A DNA stretch of 39,472 nucleotides from Dehalococcoidia bacterium (GTDB lineage Bacteria > Chloroflexota > Dehalococcoidia > SM23-28-2). The stretch is from positions 231,089 through 270,560 of the forward strand of contig CP070630.1 of NCBI GenBank assembly GCA_020356025.1, written 5' to 3'. The notes under the pieces were generated by a model that did not search any database, was not told where the DNA came from, and worked only from the letters and a program-made list of their open reading frames with translations. The position numbers were made by a program, and so were the translations under genes. Positions within the stretch are counted from its first letter, which is position 1; every line of letters begins with the position of its first letter. Positions 6,491 through 37,398 of the stretch are shown here, in pieces.

Positions 6491-6622
6491 GCTCTCATCT
6501 TTCCCTTCGCCTGAACCGAAGGGTCGGACTTGGCACCGTGTCCGGCCTTGAGCAAACCGCTCTGGGACGGATCGGTTGCCGGGTTTCCTTGGGCCGTTCC
6601 CTCCACCACTCTGGATAAGAGC
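6491..6622 (-). promoter_or_regulatory. SAM-I riboswitch (S box)
   Basis: Read on the minus strand, this has the S-box hallmarks in order: GCTCTTATC opening P1, AGAGTGGTGGAGGGAA, GGCCC..GAAACCCGGCAACC, then GGTGCCAAGTCC and the closing GATGAGAGC. P1 is 9 bp (6614-6622 with 6491-6499, one G-U). It is followed by a terminator hairpin at 6450-6476 and then mtnA. By analogy with the class it is an OFF switch: SAM binding stabilises the aptamer and lets the terminator form, lowering expression of the whole SAM-cycle operon. Confidence 0.97.
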
Positions 6623-10741: not shown

Positions 10742-10838
10742 GGGAGTGGATGGGCCCCGGTGGGCCTCTCGGTCTTCAAAACCGATGCGGGGCGGTAGGA
10801 CCGTCCTGGGTGGGTTCGACTCCCATGCACTCCCGCCA
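10742..10838 (+). tRNA. selC: tRNA-Sec (anticodon TCA)
   Basis: 97 bases folding as a bacterial selenocysteine tRNA. Acceptor GGGAGTG pairs with CACTCCC (seven pairs, the eighth is G-G), discriminator G10835 and encoded CCA at 10836-10838. The D stem has 6 pairs with the tRNA-Sec type CGGT loop (10752-10767). The anticodon stem TCGGT/ACCGA holds loop CTTCAAA with anticodon TCA at 10776-10778. A long variable arm has 7 pairs and an AGG loop (10790-10806), and the T arm has TTCGACT. Its presence implies the organism makes selenoproteins. The partner genes selA, selB and selD are not in this window. Confidence 0.95.
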
Positions 10839-19113: not shown

Positions 19114-19320
19114 TTACAGTCGCAGCTTACCGTGAGATGGCTGGCGTCGGCGCTGGCGGTGAGGTGCTCCTTCCTCGGCCTGAAGCTCTTCGGCGGCCAT
19201 GGCACCGACTTCGTAGACGTAGCCACAGCAGAGGCAGGAACTGTACGAGCCGTACCAGTCCTGTTCCATGATCATGGAGCCACGACAGCGGGGACAGACT
19301 CTGGGCGGAGAGGCTTGCAT
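19114..19320 (-). CDS. Small zinc-ribbon protein behind a c-di-AMP riboswitch
   Basis: 68 residues. Two cysteine pairs, CPRC (about 9-12) and CLCC (about 29-32), with spacing right for one zinc ribbon, followed by GYVYEV and a charged tail (EELQAEEGAPHRQRRRQ). No signal peptide. ATG at 19320 has GGAAGGGGG about 12 bases upstream. It is the only gene between the c-di-AMP riboswitch/terminator (19401-19560) and the hairpin at 19043-19075, so it appears to be a single-gene unit under that switch. The fold suggests nucleic-acid or protein binding; actual role unknown. Known targets of this riboswitch class are mostly potassium transporters and cell-wall enzymes, so this would be unusual. Confidence 0.8.
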   Translation of the reverse strand: MQASPPRVCPRCRGSMIMEQDWYGSYSSCLCCGYVYEVGAMAAEELQAEEGAPHRQRRRQPSHGKLRL

Positions 19321-19400
19321 CGCTACTTCGAACCCCCTTCCGTTGGCCGTGTCGCCCAGAGGCTCGTTCCTGCCTGGCCAAGCAGGGCCTCGGGCGGCAC

Positions 19401-19439
19401 AAAAAAGGCCTTTTGCCAGTAACCGCCGGCAAGGCCTTT
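19401..19439 (-). terminator. Terminator of the c-di-AMP riboswitch
   Basis: On the minus strand AAAGGCCTT...GCC (from 19439) pairs with GGC...AAGGCCTTT (to 19404) and ends in a six-T run (19406-19401). It directly follows the ydaO-type aptamer and precedes the zinc-ribbon gene. Confidence 0.85.
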
Positions 19440-19440
19440 C

Positions 19441-19560
19441 GTGCGCCTCCGAGGTTAGTTGACGGATTCGGGTTGAAAGGCTAACCCTACCCTCGCTTCA
19501 GCGAGAGATTCACCCCGGAATATGGTCCCCCGTGTCGCCTACAGCGACTTCGGCGCGGGC
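19441..19560 (-). promoter_or_regulatory. ydaO/yuaA-type c-di-AMP riboswitch
   Basis: On the minus strand the order of conserved blocks matches the ydaO class: GCGCC (P1), a small hairpin GTCGC/GGCGAC, ACGGGGGACC, GGGGTGAATC, the hairpin CTCGCTGAAGCGAG, GGTAGGGTTA, CCCGAATCCGTCA and CTAACCTCGGAGGCGC closing P1 (19443-19447 with 19552-19556). One block reads GTCAACTAACC where the usual form is GTCAGCTAACC. Riboswitches of this class are OFF switches for c-di-AMP. A perfect promoter lies upstream and a terminator downstream. Confidence 0.93.
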
Positions 19561-19580
19561 GATCGTGACTTCAATCACAT

Positions 19581-19608
19581 ATTATAGCAACAAGTAAGAA
19601 TCTGTCAA
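19581..19608 (-). promoter_or_regulatory. Consensus promoter of the c-di-AMP riboswitch unit
   Basis: TTGACA (19603-19608), 16-base spacer, TATAAT (19581-19586) on the minus strand: both hexamers are perfect sigma70 consensus, the strongest-looking promoter in the window. Transcription would begin near 19574, just before the aptamer. Confidence 0.9.
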
Positions 19609-24576: not shown

Positions 24577-24610
24577 CCAGGTGTTTCCTGTACCTTAGTA
24601 ATCGAATAGC

Positions 24611-24746
24611 GGTTGGCAAGGGTGCCCCGCAGGGCCTCCGCCTGAGGCGGAGGCCGGGGTTAAAAGCGAAGCCGGTGTGAGACCGGCGCTGTCCCGCAAC
24701 TGTAATCCGCTGTGGGCGGAAAGTCAGGTCGCCTGCCCTTGTCAGA
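24611..24746 (+). promoter_or_regulatory. Cobalamin riboswitch
   Basis: Shows GGTTGGCAAGGGTGCCCCG, GCCGGGGTTAAAAGCGAAGCCGG, the B12-box region GCGCTGTCCCGCAACTGTA and GGAAAGTCAGGTCGCCTGCC. P1 pairs GGCAAGGG (24615-24622) with CCCTTGTC (24736-24743). It is followed by a terminator at 24799-24840 whose 3' arm is the same GGCAAGGG, giving an evident switch. It controls the vitamin B12 import operon and should be OFF when adenosylcobalamin (or another cobalamin) is bound. Confidence 0.95.
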
Positions 24747-24798
24747 TGCACCAGTCTTCGAGGGAGAGGCATGGGCACATGCGGTGGAAGAGCACGCG

Positions 24799-35832: not shown

Positions 35833-35851
35833 GAAAGTGCAAACTGAATAG

Positions 35852-37398
<1,547 letters not shown>

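Follow-up and report, generated by a model that had tools for sequence, protein, structure and literature searches.

In the window analysed here (the whole stretch of 39,472 nucleotides from a Dehalococcoidia bacterium), a c-di-AMP riboswitch of the ydaO class (RF00379) lies ahead of a gene for a 68-residue zinc-ribbon protein, and both this unit and the association of its two parts across relatives are solid. We consider it probable that the unit is monocistronic and ligand-activated (ON), and that it makes an accessory zinc-ribbon factor for a conserved macromolecule. With a little less assurance we also favor the broader hypothesis that in Dehalococcoidia an inverted, c-di-AMP-activated ydaO riboswitch drives a class-specific zinc-ribbon effector beside c-di-AMP-repressed osmolyte genes of the same genome; if true, one second messenger would produce opposite transcriptional outputs via one aptamer class. 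The c-di-AMP riboswitches described so far are OFF switches for transporters, osmolyte genes and cell-wall genes; within one order about half of the RF00379 copies precede tiny zinc-ribbon open reading frames (ORFs), and the anatomy of one family of these units (family A, that of the window) predicts activation. If confirmed, this would be an ON-type member of the c-di-AMP riboswitch class whose sign of control is reversed by the expression platform alone, and it would point to a hitherto unassigned downstream effector of c-di-AMP. A literature search for c-di-AMP riboswitches in connection with zinc ribbons, Chloroflexi or Dehalococcoidia gave no relevant paper, and an earlier listing is possible.

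Layout of the transcription unit

The unit is read from the minus strand, and its parts had been named in a preliminary description made from the sequence: a TTGACA-16-TATAAT promoter, a ydaO-class aptamer, a terminator with six Ts, a single small gene with CPRC and CLCC, and a strong hairpin at the end. Each is present. The promoter consists of a −35 element, TTGACA (19608-19603), and a −10 element, TATAAT (19586-19581), separated by a 16-nt spacer, and a putative palindromic operator, TGTGATTGAAGTCACGA, with the CRP/FNR-like spacing TGTGA-N6-TCAC, overlaps the expected start site (19579-19563). A covariance search places the aptamer at 19565-19431, matching RF00379 over its full length (model positions 1-134; E 3.1e-17) with 80.2 bits, far above the gathering score of 38. 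The intrinsic terminator (19440-19401) is a hairpin at 19440-19407, with a folding energy of about −21 kcal/mol, followed by six U residues at 19406-19401. The ORF of the zinc-ribbon protein occupies 19320-19114; it encodes C-x2-C-x16-C-x2-C, with CPRC at residues 9-12 and CLCC at residues 29-32, and ends in the basic tail RQRRRQPSHGKLRL. By folding, a strong hairpin closes the transcript at 19074-19043. The same genome carries six RF00379 copies and a gene with a diadenylate cyclase domain.

Downstream of the unit, marR and an RND gene follow on the same strand, both in the window and in its nearest relatives, and the small ORF might only open a longer transcript whose true target is a MarR-RND efflux operon. 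We hold this to be very improbable: the hairpin at 19074-19043 stands in between, and the class shows varying neighbours, among them an ABM-domain gene and a response regulator, whereas the riboswitch-gene pair is constant. Of 77 relatives, 58 have a terminator-like hairpin after the gene, as the window does, which fits a one-gene transcript.

Several other features were recorded in these surroundings. At 22 of 56 family-A loci (for example, L116 and L126) an ABM-domain (PF03992) gene lies downstream on the same strand, beyond a terminator-like hairpin in the loci inspected. Elsewhere in the window are a SAM riboswitch (6492-6621, minus strand), a cobalamin riboswitch (24603-24754, plus strand), a TPP riboswitch (35848-35962, plus strand) and a selenocysteine tRNA gene (10742-10834, plus strand; 79.4 bits).

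Distribution of the riboswitch and its gene families

RF00379 is found in 25 of 25 genomes of the order, with 85 copies in total, and 43 of the 85 have a small CxxC...CxxC ORF within 400 nt downstream. These 43 divide into 24 of family A, eight of family B, ten of family C (one entry, G003:C13, being doubtful) and one more that is C-like, as counted by a pattern search rather than from curated annotation. Family A, with its tail RQRRRQPSHGKLRL, stands behind the riboswitch in 24 of the 25 genomes; the missing genome is a 76%-complete assembly. Downstream of the remaining copies lie lysine 2,3-aminomutase, an operon for a VTT-domain membrane protein, and aminotransferase-like, glycosyltransferase-like and a few other genes (names given from reading the sequences). 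The view of the preliminary description that a zinc-ribbon gene is the sole target, and a new kind of output, therefore stands for this transcript but not as an isolated case, because several small zinc-ribbon families fall under the same riboswitch class.

Beyond the order, 80 named family-A loci belong to Dehalococcoidia or to unplaced Chloroflexota records, Tepidiforma flava among them, and in a phylum-wide sample family-A matches were confined to this class. An Rfam scan detected RF00379 just upstream of family A at 44 of 60 named loci (20/20, 17/20 and 7/20); in most relatives, homologues of the gene sit behind a c-di-AMP riboswitch, a recurrence on which the preliminary description had made its reading depend. 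The loci among the 60 that lack RF00379 come mostly from one group with near-identical proteins (L158, L160-L171). No weak RF00379 match was found when 12 riboswitch-less family-A loci were rescanned at E<=1, and most genomes of such loci carry RF00379 elsewhere; in a minority of relatives, the gene is kept and the riboswitch is absent. Across 393 genomes of the class, RF00379 occurs in 133 of the 135 with strong family A (E<=1e-20) versus 22 of the 258 without, a co-occurrence at the level of genomes rather than adjacency, for which a Fisher p-value overstates independence given the kinship of the genomes.

Outside the order, the CxxC...CxxC pattern was applied to 60 high-scoring riboswitches of the class. 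It flags 24, at least two of them falsely (a haem-type motif in one case, a nonsense frame in another), and the same 60 also lie ahead of other types of small protein, of trehalose-phosphate-synthase-like genes and of transporters. One recurrent type behind these riboswitches reads PWWRR...RRCPEC...YCPxCH...PEWRFG (L214, L215, L223, L225, L250 and others), and another is helical with two CxxC motifs (L207, L212, L228). In the genome of the window, a family B zinc-ribbon gene lies behind a c-di-AMP riboswitch (G000:C1:13684-14087; L001/L008), and a paralogue at G000:C1:1285814 (L009) has no RF00379. Two adjacent c-di-AMP riboswitches at G000:C1:2005001-2006781 (L002, L006) precede an aminotransferase-like and a lysine 2,3-aminomutase-like gene respectively, an arrangement that suggests control of the osmolyte beta-lysine.

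The family-A promoters share a further pattern. In 21 of 24 leaders of the order, GT[T/G]-type and TCACAA-like half sites lie over the start, against a shuffled expectation of 0.15 in 24, although the pattern was written after viewing the family-A leaders. It appears in one of 61 other c-di-AMP riboswitch leaders of the order and in none of 60 in the class sample. The pattern is not universal, being present in nine of 43 riboswitch-bearing family-A leaders of the wider class, and 10 of 13 relatives without the riboswitch also have it ahead of the gene. This putative operator may provide a second, protein-based layer of control.

Pseudoknot, terminator and the predicted sign of control

The solved ydaO RNA contains a stable pseudoknot, and in the ydaO sequence printed with it CUCCUUCG in the loop complements CGAAGGAG in the tail (PMC5393176). 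The window has the same complementarity between a loop strand in the aptamer, GCCUUUC (19481-19475), and a tail strand, GAAAGGC (19440-19434), with seven contiguous pairs, and complementarity of at least 5 bp is present in 188 of 188 Dehalococcoidia leaders. The loop/tail pairing score is 17.3 for native leaders versus 12.9 +/- 0.3 with re-dealt tails, and 17.0 versus 15.6 +/- 0.4 inside family A, both contrasts being inflated by shared ancestry. Because the loop CCUUUC is invariant in the alignment of leaders of the order, covariation within family A is limited there, and support for the pairing comes from the wider set.

The tail strand has a second role: it is also the base of the 5' shoulder of the terminator. 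In the window the 5' arm spans the whole 7-nt pseudoknot core, and the terminator does not stand apart from the aptamer as it does in the OFF type. The arm likewise covers the core in 21 of the 22 family-A leaders scored in the order, the lone exception (G007) having the same strands and being mis-called by the script, which picked another core; in the wider class the arm covers the core in 15 of 18 family-A leaders. The overlap is seen in zero of seven family B leaders and zero of four family C leaders, and among other leaders in 10 of 19 in the order and seven of 31 in the class sample. Eight Bacillota leaders served as reference, six of them located before APC permease or TrkA/H genes; overlap was called only in L264, where the script chose a U-run within a hairpin and not the terminator; in the Bacilli APC-permease and TrkA/H leaders, the terminator starts 8-31 nt past the pseudoknot strand. 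The lysine 2,3-aminomutase c-di-AMP leader of the window's own genome also has its terminator away from the pseudoknot.

Folding bears on the same point. With the pseudoknot strand held unpaired, family-A terminators lose 8.2 kcal/mol on average, as computed by programs that model neither pseudoknots nor kinetics. The shoulder's pairing loss exceeds 0.3 in only 12 of 22 family-A leaders, since a partial upper stem or substitute pairing is still possible. Three reference leaders (L264, L267 and L268) were read in this folding-cost test at a U-run other than the true terminator, so that the reference mean is unreliable and the comparison of positions is the better control.

For riboswitches, an aptamer overlapping the terminator shoulder has been taken to mean an ON switch and a c-di-AMP aptamer standing apart an OFF switch, predictions that were confirmed experimentally (PMC9337991). 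Since this overlap reasoning applies to family A, its members should be ON, and we infer that in the family-A riboswitch c-di-AMP likely prevents termination, opposite to the known ydaO riboswitches. In the proposed mechanism, the strand 3' of the aptamer (GAAAGGC...) would form the terminator base when no ligand is present, and transcription would stop ahead of the gene; the c-di-AMP-folded aptamer would capture this strand in its own pseudoknot, the terminator would lose the part of its stem adjoining the U-tract, and RNA polymerase would read into the zinc-ribbon gene. High c-di-AMP would accordingly switch the zinc-ribbon protein on, while other c-di-AMP leaders of the same genomes with a recognisable terminator (for example, those of lysine 2,3-aminomutase and VTT-domain membrane genes) have the ordinary OFF anatomy.

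The opposite sign, in which the ligand promotes termination as in known ydaO riboswitches and the cell makes the zinc-ribbon protein at low c-di-AMP, has precedent on its side: the c-di-AMP riboswitches described in PMC6488665, PMC9960051 and PMC9337991 are all OFF, no ON-type ydaO switch was found in the accessible papers, and strong terminators directly follow the family-A aptamers. We nevertheless judge it unlikely, as almost every family-A leader scored uses the strand of the ligand-bound pseudoknot for the terminator's 5' shoulder as well, and pseudoknot and terminator cannot coexist where one strand serves both. No other antiterminator strand stood out, and many of the truncated folds pair the tail with the loop of the pseudoknot.

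Compared with ydaO/yuaA (RF00379) leaders such as those of B. subtilis ydaO/kimA and B. thuringiensis kdpFABC, the ON layout proposed for the window keeps the aptamer family, core, pseudoknot and downstream intrinsic terminator. It differs in its target, which is a small zinc-ribbon gene and not one for K+ transport, osmolytes or the cell wall, and in the terminator's sharing of the pseudoknot strand, which predicts ON rather than OFF. The Na+-I (DUF1646) riboswitch resembles the window unit in having an aptamer strand in common with the terminator shoulder, again in an ON layout, but differs in aptamer and ligand (PMC9337991). A tandem Na+-I/c-di-AMP leader of a beta-lysine gene is known from Dehalobacter sp. 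CF (PMC9337991), and the genome of the window too has a c-di-AMP-type lysine 2,3-aminomutase leader; in contrast to that tandem, the zinc-ribbon unit has a single aptamer, lacks one for Na+ and is predicted to have the opposite sign. Outside the order the expression platform of family-A leaders may differ, because a recognisable U-tract is absent in more than half of them (18 of 43 were scored with a terminator). Tepidiforma flava, a named isolate, carries the same unit, and the ON prediction is therefore directly testable.

The zinc-ribbon protein

The small ORF is a genuine gene, because its product is 96, 91 and 84% identical to those of three relatives and the codon differences are mostly synonymous (12 synonymous versus 3 other, 18 versus 6, and 17 versus 11). 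Its very short length, and Pfam matches that all fall under the cut-off, are what would be expected if the ORF were spurious and the riboswitch either a remnant or a functional small RNA. With conservation so strong at the protein level, with cysteines and tail invariant and with the gene retained even without the riboswitch, the chance of this is negligible. Among 52 homologues, Cys 9, 12, 29 and 32 and nearly all of the tail RQRRRQPSHGKLRL are invariant, K65, L66 and R67 varying slightly.

An AF2 model (pLDDT 77) forms a beta ribbon with strands at 15-21, 24-29 and 35-38 and a short helix, the tail being less certain. Its two CxxC knuckles lie in the beta ribbon, making the modelled protein a C4 zinc ribbon with predicted zinc binding. 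Searches of Pfam, NCBIfam and PDB sequences returned ribbon matches below threshold only. The Lar restriction-alleviation protein (PF14354) reached 20.7 bits against a gathering score of 28.6, and RPB9/TFS-type transcription factor ribbons reached 15.3 against 25.2 bits (PF02150) and 15.3 against 120 bits (NF047723). A Foldseek fold search gave nothing significant, its best match being ZifS TTHA0897 (PDB 8yoz; E 0.09, TM 0.42). RPB9/TFIIB ribbons, Lar and ZifS share with the window protein a C4 ribbon and a similar size, but they have no significant sequence relation to it, and the tail RQRRRQPSHGKLRL lies outside the matched stretches.

A LysW-like or rubredoxin-like carrier, or a metal handler, for osmolyte metabolism would suit either sign of control; osmolyte genes (lysine 2,3-aminomutase, trehalose-phosphate-synthase-like) stand under the same riboswitch, and there is a weak LysW match (E 0.85). 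The C-terminus of LysW is acidic. That of the window protein is conserved and strongly basic, unlike LysW, and the weak profile matches are mostly to RPB9/TFIIB/Lar-type ribbons, so that a carrier or metal handler seems improbable. The preliminary description had suggested a small nucleic-acid- or protein-binding effector. Most plausibly the protein would be an accessory factor that binds nucleic acid, RNA polymerase or the ribosome. The basic C-terminal tail is its most conserved part, more so than the ribbon; as a guess from this conservation, the protein may touch a partner that itself changes slowly, for instance RNA polymerase or the ribosome.
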